From IMG/VR virus record IMGVR_UViG_3300025410_000039, positions 1 to 40,584 of that record: a stretch of DNA of 40,584 bases. One strand, written 5' to 3'. Below the pieces are notes generated by a model. It saw nothing but the letters and a program-made list of their open reading frames with translations. It had not been told where the DNA came from and did no database searches. Shown here one piece after another: positions 18,524 through 28,452 of the stretch. How positions within the stretch are numbered: the first letter of the stretch is position 1; each line of letters begins with the position of its first letter. A program made the position numbers and the translations under genes. This DNA comes from a virus.

Positions 18524-18664
18524 CTAGCAAAGATGCAGGAGTTCGGTGTCGAGGACTGGCATGAAGGGCTGTTTGTTCCAGCAAAGATATTCTTGGTTGA
18601 TTATCAGCTTCTCTGGCAACATCTTAGCCAGTGCTTGTTTGAGTTGGGGGTTGGTGGCGTTCAT
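18524..18664 (-). CDS. Mini-gene, 46 residues, coupled to DNA polymerase
   Basis: A short frame whose ATG overlaps the polymerase stop (ATGA at 18664-18661). The predicted product begins MNATNPQLKQALAKMLPEKL and continues with an aromatic-rich segment ending in LDTELLHLC. It resembles a small helical peptide. The tight overlap makes translation after polymerase termination likely. No family is recognised. Confidence 0.5.
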   Translation of the reverse strand: MNATNPQLKQALAKMLPEKLIINQEYLCWNKQPFMPVLDTELLHLC

Positions 18665-20604
18665 TTCCAATGTTCTCCTATGTTCATGTCAGTGACAACA
18701 GGGACTTGCATGCTGACACAGTTTTCTTTGGTTTGTTGTAGTTTTCTTGCATGTTCCTCAGATTCGACACCATAATTAAGTTCATCATGAACTTGCATGT
18801 ATGGTAAAATGTTTCCATGCTCTTTATGGCATGCAAGGATTGCTGCTTTCGTCATGTCAGCAGCAGACCCCTGAATTAGAGCATTCAACGCCTTGTGTGT
18901 GTTGCTTCGCTGAAGTTTGTGATTCGGCCACTTGATGTGCGCTTGGTCTTCCCTGACTGGGACAACATCTTCTCCGGCTTGTCGCATTTTGTAAGCGTCA
19001 ACTGGCTCAAAGAACTTGAAATGTCTGCGTCTTCCCAGCAAAGTCTTGATATAGCCGCGTTTCTGCGCCGTGGATGAGCACGAGTCAGCAATTTCCTTGA
19101 CAAAGGGGACTCCTTCATCAAACTTCTTAAGTATTCGATCTGCTTCCTCGAGGGTTTTGTTAAGCTTAGCGGCGAGTTTCTTTCTACCCATGCCATAGCA
19201 GCGGCCAAGATAGCAATCCTTAGCTGGCCTTCGGTCGATACCAGCTGCTTCGACCATAAGCTGGTAGATGTCGAATTTCCGATTATTTCGATACGCCATG
19301 GCAGCGAGCCGAGCGCCTGTGAAGTCACAGAGAGTTGCAAAGTGAGTGAGTATTCGCGGTTCTTGTGCGGAATAGTCGAACTTCGCCCATTTAAGATTCT
19401 TTTCATGTGGTATAAAACAGGCACGAATCATCGCGCCAATATCATTAGGTTTTCCAGATTTACGATATTTTCCAGCAGGAACTTGTTGAGGGTTTGGGTT
19501 TGCTGCAGCCATACGTCCAGTGCGAGTTCCACCTTCATCAGAAGCACACTGACGCCATTGACAATGGATTCTGTCTCCCACTAAGTTATCCAGAATCCAA
19601 CCATTCACAAAAGTGTCCCTGAGCTTGCTTAGCTCACGTAAGTCACTTAAATCGTCAAAGAAAGGATGAATGGTTCCTTCGATATAGTCTGAAGTGAAAC
19701 TAGGATTACCTGCTTCAGTTCTAGGATAGTTAATCTTCAACCTGTCGCAAATCATGGCAAGCTTTGGACCAGACCATTCGTCAATATCAGCACCGTATTT
19801 TTTCTTCATCTCGAAGCGAAGTTCCTTTTCTTTGATTTCCAGGGACTTGCTGAGAGATTGTGCTTTCTCCACGTCCATTCGTATTCCACGTTTGCGCATT
19901 TGCCACAACAGCGGAAGTAGTTCGGATTCTAGTTGGAAGATGCCTGTTAAGTCTTCTGCTTTAAGTATTTCCAGTTGTTTCTGGAATATGTGAAGTGGTG
20001 CATTGGCATCGTATTCTGCATACGGACCAACGAATTTACTGGGAAGTTTCCAGAGGCTTCCTTTTACATCTTTCAGACCGAAGTTAGCACATGCCTCTCG
20101 AAGCAATGTTTCATCTTTATGCCCACCAAGATACTTAATGCAGAGATTATCTAGCGAATTGCTTGGTGCTTCTTCGTCAATGAGAGCCTCTGCAATCTGG
20201 ACATCGATGAGTTTACTCTTGATATGTATATCTTCCGATGACAACCCCTCGAGTTCATATTGCAGATTGGCTCCGCAGACAAATCTATCGCTATCCGACA
20301 ACACATCACGTAAGAACGAGGTGACTGCACCTCTATCCATGTTGCCGCCTCCGAGATGGCCGATTGGGAAATACCAAGACCTATCAAGCGTAGACAAACT
20401 AACGCCGACAACCCTTGCATCTCCGCGGATAAATCCAGGACCTTTTGACTCGAGATTAGGGTCATGTGACTCAATATCCAGTCCAAGGGTCTTTTCACCG
20501 TTAATGTTAGGAAAGCTCTTGGGTGGAGTCCATTCGGATTTTGGTTCGAATAGAGTGCCACAGAGTCCGTCACTTGCGTCGTGATTGATGCTTTTTCTTG
20601 CCAT
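18661..20604 (-). CDS. polA: Family A DNA polymerase with 3'-5' exonuclease domain
   Basis: 647 residues. Exonuclease domain: Exo I GLDIESHDP (Asp43, Glu45), Exo II NLQYELEG (Asn113, with Glu117 where Asp is usual), Exo III YAEYD (Tyr195, Asp199). Polymerase domain: RTGRMAAANPNPQQVP, motif A KFDYSAQEPR (Asp410), O helix RRPAKDCYLGRCYG (Arg459, Lys462, Tyr470), motif C MQVHDELN (His606-Asp607-Glu608). The residue equivalent to Phe762 of E. coli Pol I is Leu466. There is no 5'-3' exonuclease domain. It is the replicative polymerase. A promoter at 20638-20666 lies inside the overlapping upstream gene, and a 46-codon gene is coupled downstream. Confidence 0.95.
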   Translation of the reverse strand: MARKSINHDASDGLCGTLFEPKSEWTPPKSFPNINGEKTLGLDIESHDPNLESKGPGFIRGDARVVGVSLSTLDRSWYFPIGHLGGGNMDRGAVTSFLRDVLSDSDRFVCGANLQYELEGLSSEDIHIKSKLIDVQIAEALIDEEAPSNSLDNLCIKYLGGHKDETLLREACANFGLKDVKGSLWKLPSKFVGPYAEYDANAPLHIFQKQLEILKAEDLTGIFQLESELLPLLWQMRKRGIRMDVEKAQSLSKSLEIKEKELRFEMKKKYGADIDEWSGPKLAMICDRLKINYPRTEAGNPSFTSDYIEGTIHPFFDDLSDLRELSKLRDTFVNGWILDNLVGDRIHCQWRQCASDEGGTRTGRMAAANPNPQQVPAGKYRKSGKPNDIGAMIRACFIPHEKNLKWAKFDYSAQEPRILTHFATLCDFTGARLAAMAYRNNRKFDIYQLMVEAAGIDRRPAKDCYLGRCYGMGRKKLAAKLNKTLEEADRILKKFDEGVPFVKEIADSCSSTAQKRGYIKTLLGRRRHFKFFEPVDAYKMRQAGEDVVPVREDQAHIKWPNHKLQRSNTHKALNALIQGSAADMTKAAILACHKEHGNILPYMQVHDELNYGVESEEHARKLQQTKENCVSMQVPVVTDMNIGEHWK

Positions 20605-20764
20605 TGTTCTTGGATTTCAAGAGTTTCTTATAGTCTAATAATAGTGCTTGGTATTCAACAAGTAAACATTGAAAACATATTCCGCGCTTACCAGGACGAA
20701 CATCTTTTAGTTCGTGATACAAGTACGGTTCTTTGCACACCCGACAAAAGTTATCTGTTAGCAT
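20570..20764 (-). CDS. Small zinc-ribbon-like protein
   Basis: 64 residues with two CxxC knuckles, FCRVCKEPY and GICFQCLLV, about 24 residues apart, followed by a Lys-rich tail (KKLLKSKNNGKKKHQSRRK). This is a zinc-ribbon-like layout with a basic, nucleic-acid-binding tail. It overlaps the thymidylate-synthase-like gene by 7 bp upstream and the polymerase by 35 bp downstream. The coding sequence also contains the -35 and -10 boxes of the polymerase promoter. Role unknown; a regulator or polymerase accessory is possible. Confidence 0.65.
   Translation of the reverse strand: MLTDNFCRVCKEPYLYHELKDVRPGKRGICFQCLLVEYQALLLDYKKLLKSKNNGKKKHQSRRK
20638..20666 (-). promoter_or_regulatory. Leftward promoter of DNA polymerase, inside the zinc-ribbon gene
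   Basis: TTTACT (20666-20661), 17-bp spacer, TATTAT (20643-20638). It lies wholly inside the coding sequence of the zinc-ribbon protein. The polymerase ATG at 20604 is about 27 bases after the predicted start. Confidence 0.65.
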
Positions 20765-21534
20765 AGTGCTTGAGAAATTGCATTAATGGTTAAATTCGGT
20801 TGTTTCCTAAGGCATTCCAATTGATTCATTAAATCATCGGGTGAATTAAACCTATGTATACCTATAATTAAATTATCCCCGTCATTTCCATTAGCAAACA
20901 CTTCTTGTGCCTGGTCTACGTGGCGTTGATACAGGTGTTTACTACCAGCAGTAACACGTAGTGTTCCCAATTCGTAATCGATTCCCTTAGTCTTGAATTT
21001 CAGAAGAAGCAACAGTGACATCATGCTAAATGTGAAGATGTCGTAAGGAAGACCAAGCCAGATATCTGATGACCGCATCCAGACGTTGCAGTTTATATGA
21101 CCTTCACGAATAAGGAATTGAAGACCGATAGTGCAGGGAATATCCTTAGAAGGAAATGGATTGGGACGCCACAATGTAATGACAGCTTGTCGTGACGACG
21201 GGTCTTCAGTAAGCTTATTCAGGACATAGTCTCTCTGTGCACAGAAGGGTGGTCCATATGCCCCGTTCATGGATTTACCATTATCTGAATACTTCTCCAG
21301 ATTTTTGCGCACATAGTCATCCAGTTCAGATTCACCTGAAAGAATCCAAAACGCTTCAGCCATCATAAACGAATAGTCGAGTTTACGTTTTAGTAACGTA
21401 ATGACAGGACTAGTCATATCAATGGTTGTTGTATGCTGTAATAATTCGTAAGTATGAAAGCCGCGTGGTTGCGCTTCATCGCCAGCCTGAATTACATCAG
21501 AAATGGCTTCAAGATATGTTTCGTTGGTGTTCAC
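20758..21534 (-). CDS. Thymidylate-synthase-fold enzyme, probable dCMP hydroxymethylase
   Basis: 258 residues from a GTG that overlaps the kinase stop (GTGA). The TS fold is clear: catalytic DIPCTIGLQF (Cys134), phosphate-binding WMRSSD (Arg154, Ser155, Asp157), GLPYDIFTF, and GSKHLYQRHVDQ (His200, Tyr202). In dTMP synthases the GLPF/Y motif is followed by Asn, which selects dUMP; here it is Asp165, as in T4-type dCMP hydroxymethylase. The C-terminal closing residues of true synthases are also absent. The reaction would be dCMP + methylene-tetrahydrofolate to 5-hydroxymethyl-dCMP. An atypical dTMP synthase remains possible. Confidence 0.75.
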   Translation of the reverse strand: MNTNETYLEAISDVIQAGDEAQPRGFHTYELLQHTTTIDMTSPVITLLKRKLDYSFMMAEAFWILSGESELDDYVRKNLEKYSDNGKSMNGAYGPPFCAQRDYVLNKLTEDPSSRQAVITLWRPNPFPSKDIPCTIGLQFLIREGHINCNVWMRSSDIWLGLPYDIFTFSMMSLLLLLKFKTKGIDYELGTLRVTAGSKHLYQRHVDQAQEVFANGNDGDNLIIGIHRFNSPDDLMNQLECLRKQPNLTINAISQALC

Positions 21535-22031
21535 AGGGATTTAGCAAAGGTTAATAGTTCCAGGCCATGTTCCTCGAGGCTGTATTTTACATGAGGAATC
21601 GTGTCAAACAAAAGGTTGTATTCAGACAAGATTGAAAAATACTTCTCCTCTGGATACTGTTCCAGTTTAGAGTGAGTTTCAAGGTGTTTCGGATAAGAAC
21701 CCGTTGATTTACAAAAGACGTAAGTCGCTTCCAGTTCCTGCATCTTTTCGTTCATTGCGTTGAAGTCATATTTGACTTGAACAGGACGCAAAGTTCTGCC
21801 GTAGCAAAACTCGCTTGGCCAATGACGGTCCATGATTACTGAACGACCGATTTTAAGGTTGTGTTCAGCTTGTGTTAACAAATCCTGGTGGTAAACTTCC
21901 ATGATTCCATGGAAAGCTTTATTACCAGAAGCATGTAGCAATACTGCATCGAAATGTGCTGCAAGATACCTGGCAAGTGTTGACTTACCAGTGGAATCCA
22001 TTCCTTCGAGAACGATGATTCTTGGTTTCAT
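21531..22031 (-). CDS. Deoxynucleoside monophosphate (thymidylate-like) kinase
   Basis: 166 residues from the ATG at 22031 (ATGA overlap with the upstream gene; a longer upstream reading is discarded). P-loop IIVLEGMDSTGKST (Lys16, Ser17), then the DR-type motif VIMDRHWPSEFCYG, and a lid-like region with KSTGSYPKHLETHSKLEQ. This is a P-loop dNMP kinase of the thymidylate kinase type. Sandwiched between a MazG-like pyrophosphatase and a hydroxymethylase-like enzyme, it probably phosphorylates the modified monophosphate on the way to a triphosphate. Confidence 0.8.
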   Translation of the reverse strand: MKPRIIVLEGMDSTGKSTLARYLAAHFDAVLLHASGNKAFHGIMEVYHQDLLTQAEHNLKIGRSVIMDRHWPSEFCYGRTLRPVQVKYDFNAMNEKMQELEATYVFCKSTGSYPKHLETHSKLEQYPEEKYFSILSEYNLLFDTIPHVKYSLEEHGLELLTFAKSL

Positions 22032-22468
22032 TGCACAAGGTCTGAAAGGTCGGGGGCTTTCCAACCCGAAGGTTTGACGATGTCGAGCTTGTCCCCCAAC
22101 GCTCCATACTTTCCGGGGTTCGTTGGCGAACAGAGTTCTTTTTGCATATTGGCGGTATGCACACGACGCCAGGCTTCCGCGATTCTATCTGGCGTAAACC
22201 CCTGAAGATGTGCGGTTCCGAGAAGAATATAAATTTCATCAACGATAGCATCGAGACAACCTTCGAGATCGCTTGTCGCATGCGCGTCAATCCATTCATG
22301 GACTTCTTCAAGTCCACGTGCACCACGAAAAGATGCTGTCTTTTCGTCCAGTAATCGAGGTTTGCCTTCATAACCGATTTTGAATTTGTGATGGAAGTCC
22401 ACCACATCTTGTGCCATGTCAGGCAAAACAGGTTTTCCAGTCATAATAGATATTGGTTGCTGAATCAT
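22028..22468 (-). CDS. MazG-like/all-alpha NTP pyrophosphatase
   Basis: 146 residues. The metal-binding helices are visible: FRGARGLEEVHEWIDA (Glu54, Glu55, Glu58) and CLDAIVDEIYILLGTAHLQG (Asp73, Asp77), followed by AWRRVHTANMQKE. This is the phage-type all-alpha (HisE/MazG-like) pyrophosphatase, which hydrolyses dNTPs to dNMPs; in modifying phages the substrate is often dCTP or dUTP. It overlaps the methyltransferase stop (ATGA) and the kinase start (ATGA), so the three genes are made together. Confidence 0.8.
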   Translation of the reverse strand: MIQQPISIMTGKPVLPDMAQDVVDFHHKFKIGYEGKPRLLDEKTASFRGARGLEEVHEWIDAHATSDLEGCLDAIVDEIYILLGTAHLQGFTPDRIAEAWRRVHTANMQKELCSPTNPGKYGALGDKLDIVKPSGWKAPDLSDLVQ

Positions 22469-23382
22469 AGTGACATGTCTTTCCAGTTAGCACTGCTGGA
22501 CCAGGGTTGTTGTATTGTTTCGATTAACGGAAATCTACCCCGCTCATAGGCAGTTGGGTTCTTTGCTTTACTCAATTCCCACAGGCAATTCCTGCTCTGC
22601 GCCGGGAACAACGGGGCGAAGATGCATGACAGGAAGTTCGTGTCATAGTATTCACGGAGCTTTTCAAAAGCTTCACTTAAGCCACCCACGTTGCGATTAC
22701 CCCAATGGTTAAGTTCATGCTCATAGTCCCTGATGGATGCAAACGTCCCATAGACGTTCTCCACCACGAATCCATGACGCTCGAAGCCCGCACCCAGGGA
22801 CTCATAGAGCATCTCATTCACGTGGTTTGCGGCACAGTCTACACGATTCCAGCAGGGCGTGGAGATGAAAAACCTGCAATCGATGTCAGTAATCTTCTTC
22901 ATGTGTTCGAGCATATCGAACATCATCTTCGGTTCAACATGTTCGAGAACTTCGAAGCAAGTAACGATATTGGGAAGCAATCCTTGTGCTTGAACATCAG
23001 ACACTGGGAATTGTTGCGGAAGTTCCACATCTGTTGTATCAAGTTCCAGAAAGTTTGTGTGTTCCCACAACTTGTGAACGAACTTCTGCGTCTTCGCTAT
23101 TTTCGCGACTTCCGAATCAAGAATAGGACCAACGTCAACACCAAGATAGATAGCAGGGGCGAGCTTAGACGAGTAAAGGGTTTTAGCAAAAGGTAACTCA
23201 CGGCCACACCCAATATCAAGAATTCGAGCAGTTTCGTAAGTTTTTCGCTCATAAAGTCGCTTAATAACGTGCGTCCAGCGCAAGCAATGAGCGATGTAAT
23301 CACGGTGAATAAACCCGCGGTCTTCTGCGTTATCGATTGACAAGAACGTCTTGTCCACTGTTTTACCTGTAGCGTTTGCCAT
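22465..23382 (-). CDS. Class I SAM-dependent methyltransferase
   Basis: 305 residues. SAM-binding motif I is RILDIGCGRELPFAKTL (about 53-69), the acidic end of strand 2 is YLGVDVG, and motif IV region is VTCFEVLEHVEP followed by FFISTPCWNR. The motif order is that of Methyltransf_11/23-type enzymes that act on small molecules or nucleotides; there is no DPPY or PC-loop typical of adenine or cytosine-5 DNA methylases. It is the first gene of the nucleotide cassette, coupled by ATGA to the pyrophosphatase. Target unknown; a base-modification step is an inference. Confidence 0.8.
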   Translation of the reverse strand: MANATGKTVDKTFLSIDNAEDRGFIHRDYIAHCLRWTHVIKRLYERKTYETARILDIGCGRELPFAKTLYSSKLAPAIYLGVDVGPILDSEVAKIAKTQKFVHKLWEHTNFLELDTTDVELPQQFPVSDVQAQGLLPNIVTCFEVLEHVEPKMMFDMLEHMKKITDIDCRFFISTPCWNRVDCAANHVNEMLYESLGAGFERHGFVVENVYGTFASIRDYEHELNHWGNRNVGGLSEAFEKLREYYDTNFLSCIFAPLFPAQSRNCLWELSKAKNPTAYERGRFPLIETIQQPWSSSANWKDMSL

Positions 23383-23714: not shown

Positions 23715-24263
23715 TTATAAATTAATAATCGTTCCGGATAGATTTAAACCTTTCAAGCAATTGGATTTCAGGCCATTGGAATCTTTGTAGTAAATATCAA
23801 CTACTTCATCGGCACCAGACAATACACCATCGCCTGAAGAATTGAACACAGCAGTGAGCTGCGTATCGCTTACAAAAGTGCATGTCCAAGAATAACCATT
23901 ATCGTCTTGGAAAGTTTCAGTATCTTCGAGATGAAGTAACCCGATAGTGGAAGAATTGAATCCAACACCGTTGATTGTGATTGTAGCACCACCAGCAGCG
24001 TCAAAAGTGGTTGGCGAAATCGATGTAAGATAGAACGGAGCAGGTTGAATCTCAATCAAACCACCCGAACCAGATATGGCATTATCAATTTGATTAAGAA
24101 CATACAGGAACATTCCTGTCTGACAAGTATATGTGTAATTACCTCCAGTATAAACAACTGTAATCGTATTTACGCCAGTTGTTACGCTATACACATTAGC
24201 CGTGGGAATACGTGTCCCATCAGGGAAAATCATGTATCCCGAAATTGAAGCGGGTGTCTTCAT
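23715..24263 (-). CDS. IPT/TIG-domain beta-sandwich protein
   Basis: 182 residues, no signal peptide. Residues about 78-175 form an IPT/TIG (Ig-like) domain: FYLTSISPTTFDAAGGATIT then INGVGFNSSTIGLLHLEDT, ending DIYYKDSNGLKSNCL. The N-terminal half is another beta-rich region (FPDGTRIPTANVYSVTTGVN). Such domains usually occur in virion or surface proteins, so its place in the early replication block is unusual. It has its own strong promoter whose predicted start is only about two bases before the ATG. It might be a decoration protein, or an early secretion-independent binding protein. Confidence 0.6.
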   Translation of the reverse strand: MKTPASISGYMIFPDGTRIPTANVYSVTTGVNTITVVYTGGNYTYTCQTGMFLYVLNQIDNAISGSGGLIEIQPAPFYLTSISPTTFDAAGGATITINGVGFNSSTIGLLHLEDTETFQDDNGYSWTCTFVSDTQLTAVFNSSGDGVLSGADEVVDIYYKDSNGLKSNCLKGLNLSGTIINL

Positions 24264-25375: not shown

Positions 25376-25786
25376 TTAGGCGCCCTTGGTGACTGTGATA
25401 ACACCGGCGTCAATCAAAGACTTCTGGTAATAGGTCACAATGCGACTGACCGGTTGGCGGGTGACAAGACCGGCAGTCGGCAGAGCCGCATACAAGTCTG
25501 TGCGGGTGATACCATTCGCACCAGCCGCTTCGATGGTGTTGATGATGACATTCGCCTGAGGAGCGAGCTTGCCGGGCGTGCCGTCAGCTTTCTTCGGCGC
25601 CACACCTTTGCCATCCGGACCGAGGACGCGCACAAACACGTCGTTCTTGCCCTCGTTCTTGGGCGTCTTCACTTCGGCCGCAACGGGAGCAGCAGGAGCA
25701 GCAGGAGCAGCAGGAGCAGCAGGAGCAGCAGGAATGGTTTCATTGACCGCCGAAGCGGTAACCGTGGATTTCGTTTGTTTGGCCAT
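25376..25786 (-). CDS. Ala/Pro-rich linker plus winged-helix-like domain
   Basis: 136 residues from the ATG at 25786, which follows AATAAGTAT and reads MAKQTKSTVTAS. Residues about 18-36 are an Ala-Pro repeat encoded by five tandem 9-bp units (25686-25730). The C-terminal 75 residues (VIINTIEAAGANGITRTDLY and VSRIVTYYQKSLIDAGVITV) look like a winged-helix domain, so DNA binding is plausible. It has a strong promoter (25844-25872) and a terminator directly after it, forming a single-gene unit that is probably highly expressed. GC content is higher than in its neighbours. It may be a nucleoid-like or regulatory protein. Confidence 0.55.
   Translation of the reverse strand: MAKQTKSTVTASAVNETIPAAPAAPAAPAAPAAPVAAEVKTPKNEGKNDVFVRVLGPDGKGVAPKKADGTPGKLAPQANVIINTIEAAGANGITRTDLYAALPTAGLVTRQPVSRIVTYYQKSLIDAGVITVTKGA
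25686..25730. repeat. Five tandem 9-bp units coding an Ala-Pro linker
   Basis: Five perfect copies of GGAGCAGCA inside the gene at 25376-25786; on the coding strand they give Ala-Ala-Pro repeats. Copy number is likely to vary by slippage. Confidence 0.8.
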
Positions 25787-25843
25787 ATACTTATTTTTGT
25801 TTTGTTTTGTTTTGTTGTTTCTGACGTAACCGTCATTATTGAT

Positions 25844-25872
25844 ACTATAACACACCGTCAGTCATGTGTAAA
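25844..25872 (-). promoter_or_regulatory. Leftward sigma70-type promoter
   Basis: TTTACA (25872-25867), 17-bp spacer, TATAGT (25849-25844). It drives the Ala/Pro-rich winged-helix gene (ATG at 25786), which is followed by a terminator. Confidence 0.75.
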
Positions 25873-27877: not shown

Positions 27878-28273
27878 TTATTTGTAGATAGGCGTGAAAA
27901 ATGGATTTGGAACTATTGAGCGTAAGAAGTCAGCTTGGTTTTTGCGATCATAAGTATCAGCAGCATAAGCAGCAGCAGCAGCAGCATAAGCAGCAGCATA
28001 AGCAGAATAAGCAGCATTAGCAGCATTAGCAGCATTAGCAGCAGCATAAGCAGCAGTAGTAGCAGCTTTGTTTTTTACATGTGTAACTGATTTAGCACAC
28101 CAGTTTGCATATTTTACTGAAATTTCTTTTGAGATGTTGGTTTTTTGTAGCAGCCACCACATCCAGTCTGAACGATGGCAGGTTTCCCATGCGATGATGA
28201 GTGATGGTTGAGCAAGAGCCCAAGTAAGAGCTTCTTTGCAGGGGTTTAGTGCGATGAATTGTTCTTTTGTCAT
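27878..28273 (-). CDS. Imm5-like protein with Ala/Tyr-rich repeat
   Basis: 131 residues from the ATG at 28273 (ATGA overlap). The N-terminal part has LNPCKEALTWALAQ and WETCHRSDWMWWLL, a pattern (..C.EAL.WL.. then ..W..C.R.DWM.WL..) shared by phage and plasmid proteins annotated as putative immunity protein Imm5-like. A low-complexity Ala-Tyr-Asn segment (about 75-110) follows, then DFLRSIVPNPFFTPIYK. The coding DNA of the repeat is a CAG/CAT-AAG microsatellite at 27956-28060. Whether it is a true immunity protein is unknown; many phages carry such proteins in early regions. Confidence 0.5.
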   Translation of the reverse strand: MTKEQFIALNPCKEALTWALAQPSLIIAWETCHRSDWMWWLLQKTNISKEISVKYANWCAKSVTHVKNKAATTAAYAAANAANAANAAYSAYAAAYAAAAAAYAADTYDRKNQADFLRSIVPNPFFTPIYK

Positions 28274-28452
28274 ATGTTTGGTAAATTTACGGGATTGTGT
28301 GGATTTTCTGCGATACAAATTGATAATACGACTCCTTGGCACTCGTGTGTAAGTGGTTGCAGGTTGTCGTTAATTTTTTGAGTAAGTTCTGAGACAGTCT
28401 TATTTGAAAGGTCGTCTGTTGTAACTTCGATGATGTATTGATATATTTGCAT
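28270..28452 (-). CDS. Hypothetical protein
   Basis: 60 residues: YQYIIEVTTDDLSNKTVSEL, then a helical stretch and GVVLSICIAENPHNP. It looks like a small alpha/beta protein. The ATG is preceded by CTATCTACAAAGCATAAC, the end of the upstream gene, and the stop overlaps the next ATG (ATGA). No family recognised. Confidence 0.45.
   Translation of the reverse strand: MQIYQYIIEVTTDDLSNKTVSELTQKINDNLQPLTHECQGVVLSICIAENPHNPVNLPNI

Follow-up and report, generated by a model that had tools for sequence, protein, structure and literature searches.

The window analysed here, the whole of a linear virus record of 40,584 bases (IMG/VR IMGVR_UViG_3300025410_000039), carries a cassette of four genes that probably makes a modified deoxycytidine nucleotide for phage DNA, with a methyltransferase as a possible O-methylating tailoring enzyme. 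The genes are named MT (methyltransferase), PPA (PRA-PH/MazG-like pyrophosphatase), KIN (P-loop kinase), and TS (thymidylate-synthase-fold enzyme). Phages with hydroxymethylcytosine are of a known kind; the new element is a methyltransferase family that is a near-constant partner in the hydroxymethylase system. The hydroxymethylation step is well supported, and the O-methylated product is inferred.

How would such a pathway run? PPA would hydrolyse deoxycytidine triphosphate (dCTP) to the monophosphate (dCMP). TS, as its residues suggest, would hydroxymethylate dCMP at C5 with the help of methylene-tetrahydrofolate: Cys134 would attack C6, Asp165 would select cytosine, and Asp131 would activate water, so that hydroxymethyl and not methyl is formed. 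KIN would rephosphorylate the resulting 5-hydroxymethyl-dCMP (5hmdCMP), making it usable by host kinases and the phage polymerase. With S-adenosylmethionine (SAM) as methyl donor, MT would methylate the oxygen of the 5-hydroxymethyl group, acting on the nucleotide or on finished DNA, to give 5-methoxymethyl-deoxycytidine. The result would be cytosine-modified virion DNA that resists restriction.

The thymidylate-synthase-fold enzyme

TS matches PF00303 (E 6e-28), and all thymidylate synthase equivalogs fall below cut-off against it. An original prediction, made from the letters of the window, had pointed to Cys134, to the phosphate-binding Arg and Ser, to Asp165 in the motif GLPYD, and to missing C-terminal closing residues. 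Alignment with E. coli ThyA and T4 gp42 bears this out. Cys134 takes the position of the nucleophile (E. coli Cys146, T4 Cys148), Glu60 that of Glu58/Glu60, and Arg154/Ser155 those of E. coli Arg166/Ser167, and Asp165 stands at E. coli Asn177, which is Asp179 in T4; the C-terminal tail of the E. coli enzyme is absent, as it is from gp42. Asp131 falls at E. coli Leu143 (T4 Asp145), and E. coli Trp80/Trp83 are replaced by Leu79/Tyr82. Across 156 homologues Cys134, Arg154, Ser155, and Asp165 are kept in every one, and Asp131 in 153, the other three having Asn. The deoxyribose residues Arg115 and Ser155 are invariant across 41 sequences.

These positions have known meanings. T4 Asp145 activates water for hydroxymethylation, the D145N mutant yields no 5hm-dCMP, and thymidylate synthase has Leu there (PMC6400193). 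Phages with modified cytosine are marked by Asp at E. coli position 177 (PMC8670742). Positions 131 and 165 can be read independently of each other, because they are Leu/Asn in E. coli ThyA, Asp/Asn in the deoxyuridylate (dUMP) hydroxymethylase of SPO1, and Asp/Asp in T4 gp42; the window enzyme is Asp/Asp. The cytidylate (CMP) hydroxymethylase MilA has Lys and Ala at the positions of Arg115 and Ser155, and reversal restores a preference for dCMP (PMC5175136).

Structure and phylogeny agree with this. The AlphaFold2 model of TS has a mean predicted local distance difference test (pLDDT) score of 94.4, and its closest solved folds are MilA entries, which take Foldseek ranks 1-7; in VIA, MilA (Z 25.6, root-mean-square deviation (rmsd) 2.6 over 245 residues) is tied with thymidylate synthase structures (Z 24.7). 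In the tree the window enzyme is one of 33 rows that form a clade (99/99) distinct from that of T4 gp42 (97/90), and the E. coli enzyme stands on a branch of its own; with many long branches and open forks within the window clade, no finer placement is claimed. Of the T4-type dCMP hydroxymethylase originally predicted, the activity is retained and the T4 affiliation is given up: TS is concluded to be a putative deoxycytidylate hydroxymethylase of a non-T4 clade.

Alternatively, TS might methylate dCMP, like the enzyme of Xp12, and the DNA would then carry 5-methyl-deoxycytidine. Xp12 DNA is fully 5-methylcytosine (5mC) (PMC7653180), and, according to work cited in PMC8670742, a change of Asn to Asp is by itself enough to make a dCMP methylase of the thymidylate synthase of E. 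coli or L. casei. With Asp131 at the T4 Asp145 position, both tryptophans replaced, and the C-terminal tail missing, a methylase is nevertheless very improbable here.

Published restriction data bear on the same question. DNA of Stenotrophomonas phage AXL3 is cut by two of 37 enzymes, both with A/T-only sites, and by none of the 35 enzymes with G/C in their sites (PMC7504290). Its genes gp28-gp31 (locus L003) form the same four-gene cassette, and this resistance, so far unexplained, would be explained because its TS residues are those of a dCMP hydroxymethylase. The AXL3 authors read these genes as a thymidylate pathway (PMC7504290), and automated annotation likewise returns thymidylate synthase and thymidylate kinase. 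Such an operon, leading from dUMP to the thymidine mono- and diphosphates (dTMP, dTDP), deserves almost no credence for the window: TS has Asp165 and Asp131 and belongs to a clade separate from E. coli thymidylate synthase, and AXL3 has a ThyX-type thymidylate synthase of its own (PMC7504290) as well as DNA that yields only at A/T-only sites. The survey of cassettes suggests that many phage annotations of thymidylate synthase and kinase are wrong. Resistance to enzymes has been put at 81.9% for T4gt (5-hydroxymethylcytosine, 5hmC), 89.9% for Xp12 (5mC), and 94.3% for T4 (glucosylated) (PMC7653180). Full resistance of AXL3 to the 35 enzymes may thus fit a capped 5hmC better than a plain one, a comparison that is only suggestive because the enzyme panels differ.

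Four residue switches, the tree, the fold ranking, the conservation of the cassette, and the resistance of AXL3 all favour the predicted hydroxymethylation of dCMP. Both the assignment of TS as a dCMP hydroxymethylase and a modification of cytosine in the phage DNA are highly probable, the modified base itself being a prediction.

Asp-type hydroxymethylases labelled thymidylate synthase are also found in the Pelagibacter phages HTVC119P (L004:8008-9292) and HTVC200P (L006:7894-9172). In HTVC119P the hypothetical gp15 just upstream is a relative of KIN (E 6e-40). Neither MT nor PPA was found near the hydroxymethylase genes of these two phages, which may carry plain 5hmC because both are absent nearby.

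A methyltransferase linked to hydroxymethylases

Is MT (METHYLTRANSFERASE) part of the hydroxymethylase system, or a neighbour by chance? Among 50,697 phage records, relatives of MT occur in five only, all with this TS cassette (AXL3 twice, PW916, MW202510, and MW202621), and TS-fold matches occur in 2,238; the idea that MT is simply common in phages was rejected on this count. A scan of IMG/VR with MT gave 247 relatives. The window TS sequence alone gave no match in a direct scan of IMG/VR, and alignments were needed. Eighty IMG/VR loci were fetched from each seed, with contigs overlapping between the two sets. TS is present in 69 of the 80 MT-seeded loci, with Asp at position 165 in all 69, and the remaining 11 stop 0-1.6 kb beyond MT, before TS could appear, so that the idea of viral loci with MT and truly without TS was rejected. 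Conversely, MT is present in 68 of the 80 TS-seeded loci. In both sets the matched genes of each locus lie on one strand. The order MT-PPA-KIN-TS recurs in 53 of the MT-seeded and 48 of the TS-seeded loci, and since it does so across both sets, the arrangement is not due to chance. When TS is clustered at 90% identity, 92 of 106 clusters have MT; altogether, the metagenomic viral loci in which MT accompanies the cassette number well over a hundred. When the window is compared with MW202510, MT shows the highest conservation of the four proteins (74% identity, against 50% for PPA, 44% for TS, and 41% for KIN).

The partnership extends beyond the clade of the window enzyme. MT stands alongside hydroxymethylases that are sister to Xp15 (L057/L060) and to T4 gp42 (L086/L087), and also in two bacterial-genome records (L186 and L182/L198). 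MT is thus tied to hydroxymethylases of at least two lineages, and is a part of the hydroxymethylase system as its near-constant partner. The Methylococcaceae metagenome-assembled genome (MAG) TMED69 (L182, on a contig of 305 kb, and L198) encodes both an MT relative and a T4-like hydroxymethylase of the Asp/Asp type, but not side by side; the TS match would be about 55 kb from MT if both are on the same contig, and a jumbo phage has perhaps been binned into the MAG. L183, whose genome has only an E. coli-type thymidylate synthase, was rejected as a member of the MT family, its MT being without the ANH motif, and L187-L196 were not counted as members.

What stands in the place of MT in other cassettes? 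In Xp15 the order is carbamoyltransferase-gp38-gp37-TS-dCMP deaminase, where gp38 is a relative of PPA (E 2.6e-24) and gp37 of KIN (E 4e-9); the carbamoyltransferases of such phages act on 5hmC (PMC8670742). A glucosyltransferase adjoins the TS-fold gene in Lactobacillus phage ATCCB, Brevibacterium phage LuckyBarnes, and Maribacter phage Molly. In two loci without MT (L140:3918-5477 and L164:4804-5796), a gene of the pyridoxal phosphate (PLP) enzyme fold (PALP, threonine-dehydratase-like) lies directly upstream of PPA. MT therefore occupies a slot of hydroxyl-tailoring enzymes. The two loci with PLP-fold genes are candidates for another cytosine hypermodification pathway, resembling the hypermodification of thymidine by PLP enzymes; unknown families (phrog_13881) lie further upstream. 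A further locus without MT, L131, encodes a 533-aa protein with a weak match to C5-cytosine DNA methylases (PF00145, phrog_116; L131:4655-6253), beside a phrog_14998 protein (L131:3631-4659); another phrog_14998 match is at L157:1125-2171.

The chemistry of MT can be approached from its fold and its conserved residues. MT matches Methyltransf_23 of Pfam (E 5e-9), and its AlphaFold2 model (pLDDT 91.6) has the class I SAM methyltransferase fold. E144, E147, H148, and H187, forming an ExxEH...H pattern, are invariant in 60 diverse members, and the MT profile aligns ExxEH with that of UbiG (E 1.7e-7) and Hen1 (E 7e-7). HEN1 binds its metal through Glu796, Glu799, His800, and His860, which lie in short helices following strands 4 and 5 (PMC10781085), and in the MT model the site residues follow the corresponding strands, 139-143 and 170-177. 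With the class I fold, ExxEH, and a later His, MT appears to have a metal site of the HEN1/UbiG type, though it is not placed in the HEN1 family proper. The best VIA match is CmoM (Z 19.3, rmsd 3.5 over 214), and HEN1 lies within a tied group (Z 16.9, rmsd 2.7 over 189). CmoM adds its methyl group to a carboxyl, carried by a side chain at C5 of a tRNA uridine. As originally predicted, MT has no motif of DNA amino- or C5-methyltransferases, neither [DNS]PP[YFW] nor PCQ being present. That it might act on the modified nucleotide was then a side remark; as a near-constant partner in a tailoring slot, with a metal site of the O-methyltransferase type, MT has become the distinctive part of the proposal. 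MT is likely to act on the hydroxymethylcytosine modification. O-methylation of the 5-hydroxymethyl group would be the simplest product, and that MT acts in this way is close to an even chance.

Several observations weigh against the proposed pathway. In TS, the T4 Ser94 position, two residues before the catalytic Tyr and a signature Ser or Thr, is Gly91, with Gly in 145 of the 156 homologues; the residue is not required of hydroxymethylases in general, because the proven SPO1 enzyme has Ala there. The resistance of AXL3 at G/C sites is no proof that the modified base is C and not G. Homology of PPA to the T4 dCTPase gp56 was undetected (hhalign probability 0.4%), which corrects the T4-type picture of the cassette; because that relation is undetectable, the dCTPase activity of PPA is read from its position. 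Eight Asp-TS cassettes lack MT in the whole record. ExxEH is also present among class I methyltransferases whose substrates vary or are unknown, and N-methyltransferases that share the fold score nearly as high against MT. HEN1 and UbiG act on substrates with two neighbouring hydroxyls, of which they methylate one, and 5hmC has no such pair; the metal partner would have to be N4, which is a weakness of the proposal.

Two alternatives arise from these points. The cassette may make plain 5-hydroxymethyl-deoxycytidine (5hmdC), or a derivative of it by an unrecognised enzyme, with MT performing another task in infection, such as methylating RNA 3' ends, as Hen1 does, or a host target. Both the sequence and the fold of MT are related to those of HEN1, which 2'-O-methylates RNA, and since some Asp-TS cassettes lack MT, hydroxymethylation does not require it. 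The linkage of MT, usually in the same transcription unit, to dCMP hydroxymethylases from two or more lineages argues against this alternative. So do the carbamoyltransferase in the corresponding slot of Xp15, which belongs to a family that acts on 5hmC, and the failure of the scan of window proteins to identify a partner such as an RNA ligase or Pnkp; the alternative is considered unlikely. Alternatively, MT might methylate N4, giving N4-methyl-5hmdC, or another atom. N-methyltransferases share its fold and appear among its structural matches, and the N4-methyl product would have the same mass as the O-methyl one. Nevertheless, the motif of exocyclic-amine DNA methyltransferases is missing, and ExxEH...H is a metal-site signature of O-methyltransferases (HEN1, and UbiG for the ExxEH part), which makes this alternative more doubtful still.

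Of the two supply enzymes, PPA matches PF01503 (E 2e-8, above cut-off) and phrog_671 (E 3e-21), and its acidic metal residues E55, E58, D73, and D77 are kept in 72 of 72 homologues and E54 in 96%. KIN has weak dTMP-kinase and P-loop matches, together with dTMP-kinase-like PHROG matches (phrog_761, E 2e-11), and shows a Walker A motif, GMDSTGKST, and DRxWPSE. In four loci (L093:5935-6984, L139:2810-3871, L156:5991-6992, and L160:4141-5112) a single open reading frame (ORF) matches both profiles. These apparent PPA-KIN fusions fit expectation, because pyrophosphatase and kinase would act in consecutive steps.

The cassette in its genome

The window comes from a podovirus-like phage, with tail tubular, head-tail adaptor, major head, primase, helicase, and family A polymerase genes recognised by Pfam and PHROGs. 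The predicted 4-bp overlaps joining the four genes can be read directly on the minus strand as ATGA, ATGA, and GTGA (Table 1). The second holds if KIN begins at the ATG at 22031, as taken here; the longest ORF would begin at a TTG at 22064, and the kinase of the relative MW202510 begins with the same MKP.

Table 1. Coordinates of the cassette and its downstream neighbours in the window.
Feature	Position	Strand	Basis
MT: class I SAM methyltransferase, 305 aa, predicted tailoring O-methyltransferase	22465..23382	-	Pfam, conservation, AlphaFold2, fold and profile matches
Overlap of MT stop and PPA start, ATGA, 4 bp	22465..22468	-	Sequence, junction ctATGAttc
PPA: all-alpha nucleoside triphosphate pyrophosphatase (PRA-PH/MazG-like), predicted dCTPase	22028..22468	-	PF01503, phrog_671, EExxE/DxxxD residues
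Overlap of PPA stop and KIN start, ATGA, 4 bp	22028..22031	-	Sequence, junction caATGAaac
KIN: P-loop (deoxy)nucleoside monophosphate kinase, predicted 5hmdCMP kinase	21531..22031	-	Family matches, conserved residues, start shared with MW202510
Overlap of KIN stop and TS start, GTGA, 4 bp	21531..21534	-	Sequence, junction ctGTGAaca
TS: thymidylate-synthase-fold deoxycytidylate hydroxymethylase (predicted), GTG start	20758..21534	-	PF00303, residues, tree, fold
64-aa ORF overlapping the TS end	20570..20764	-	ORF list; no Pfam/PHROG match
Family A DNA polymerase directly downstream	18661..20604	-	PF00476 E 9e-53

The family A polymerase would incorporate the modified triphosphate. It scores 264.7 bits against NCBIfam DpoZ, the aminoadenine-incorporating polymerase (cut-off 500), and possibly belongs to a related family that accepts modified nucleotides. 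The 64-aa ORF has a CxxC...CxxC pattern; in MW202510 the corresponding position, flanked by TS and the polymerase, is taken by a dCMP deaminase (L002:7783-8247), an enzyme that would otherwise divert dCMP to dUMP. No glycosyltransferase or carbamoyltransferase was found among the window proteins scanned with Pfam and PHROGs (the smallest ORFs not included), in line with the absence of a visible glucosyltransferase noted originally. Among anti-phage defence families TS, PPA, and MT have no match and KIN has PADLOC matches at P-loop level only; no cassette was found on plasmids. Elsewhere in the window, a 182-aa protein with an IPT/TIG domain (PF01833, E 3e-5; 23715-24263) lies among replication genes upstream of the cassette, and low-complexity repeats occur inside predicted proteins, as a run of PAA units (25376-25855) and an Ala/Asn/Tyr-rich stretch (AAYAAANAANAANAAYSAYAAAYAAAAAAYAA; 27878-28342).

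Significance and known systems

It is possible, at somewhat less than even chance, that MT founds a class of 5hmC O-methyltransferases and that phages with the cassette carry 5-methoxymethyl-deoxycytidine instead of cytosine. If so, this would be a natural DNA base not previously reported; the open-licence literature searched gave no relevant paper on 5-methoxymethylcytosine as a DNA base. Glycosylation, amination, and carbamoylation are listed as uses of the hydroxymethylcytosine handle in phages, and methylation is not (PMC12783734). Methyl-capping, with a small, uncharged cap, would join them as a tailoring chemistry. Phages with such a cap would be expected to escape 5hmC-directed defences (McrBC-like, AbaSI-like) with no need of a sugar, and 5hmC mapping based on beta-glucosyltransferase would miss the modification. 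The linkage is strong enough for direct testing, as the cultured phage AXL3 has the same cassette and restriction-resistant DNA. The interchangeable tailoring slot upstream of the PPA-KIN-hydroxymethylase core also gives a starting point for finding other modifications, such as versions with PLP enzymes.

How does the cassette compare with known systems? T4 gp42 has the same fold, the equivalents Asp179, Asp145, and Cys148, and no C-terminal tail, and gp42, gp56, and the glucosyltransferases follow the same logic of dCTP removal, hydroxymethylation, rephosphorylation, and a tailoring enzyme. However, gp42 belongs to a separate clade, shares 24% identity with the window enzyme, and has Ser94 where the latter has Gly; T4 uses a glucosyltransferase where the window has a methyltransferase, and gp56 is not detectably homologous to PPA. 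MilA, of the mildiomycin pathway, resembles TS in its cytosine-selecting Asp and in a second Asp, three residues ahead of the Cys, but prefers CMP (Lys133/Ala176), whereas TS has Arg115/Ser155 as in dCMP enzymes. HEN1 and UbiG share with MT the class I fold and the aligned ExxEH, and in HEN1 the second His likewise follows the next strand. Unlike them, MT has no RNA-binding domains, has its own N-terminal HRDYxxH..RW and C-terminal APxxPxxxRN, and lies in a phage operon with a dCMP hydroxymethylase.

The cassette of Xanthomonas phage Xp15, of the 5hmC carbamoylation kind described with metaGPA, has the same order of tailoring enzyme, PPA, KIN, and Asp-type TS, followed by a dCMP deaminase and polymerase/ligase genes; the deaminase is absent in the window, and the tailoring enzyme of Xp15 is a carbamoyltransferase instead of a methyltransferase. 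AXL3 and Pseudoxanthomonas phage PW916 have the order MT-PPA-KIN-TS and are homologous to the window in all four genes; they differ in an MT that is about 29% identical, an adjacent dCMP deaminase, a longer kinase, and a siphovirus form.

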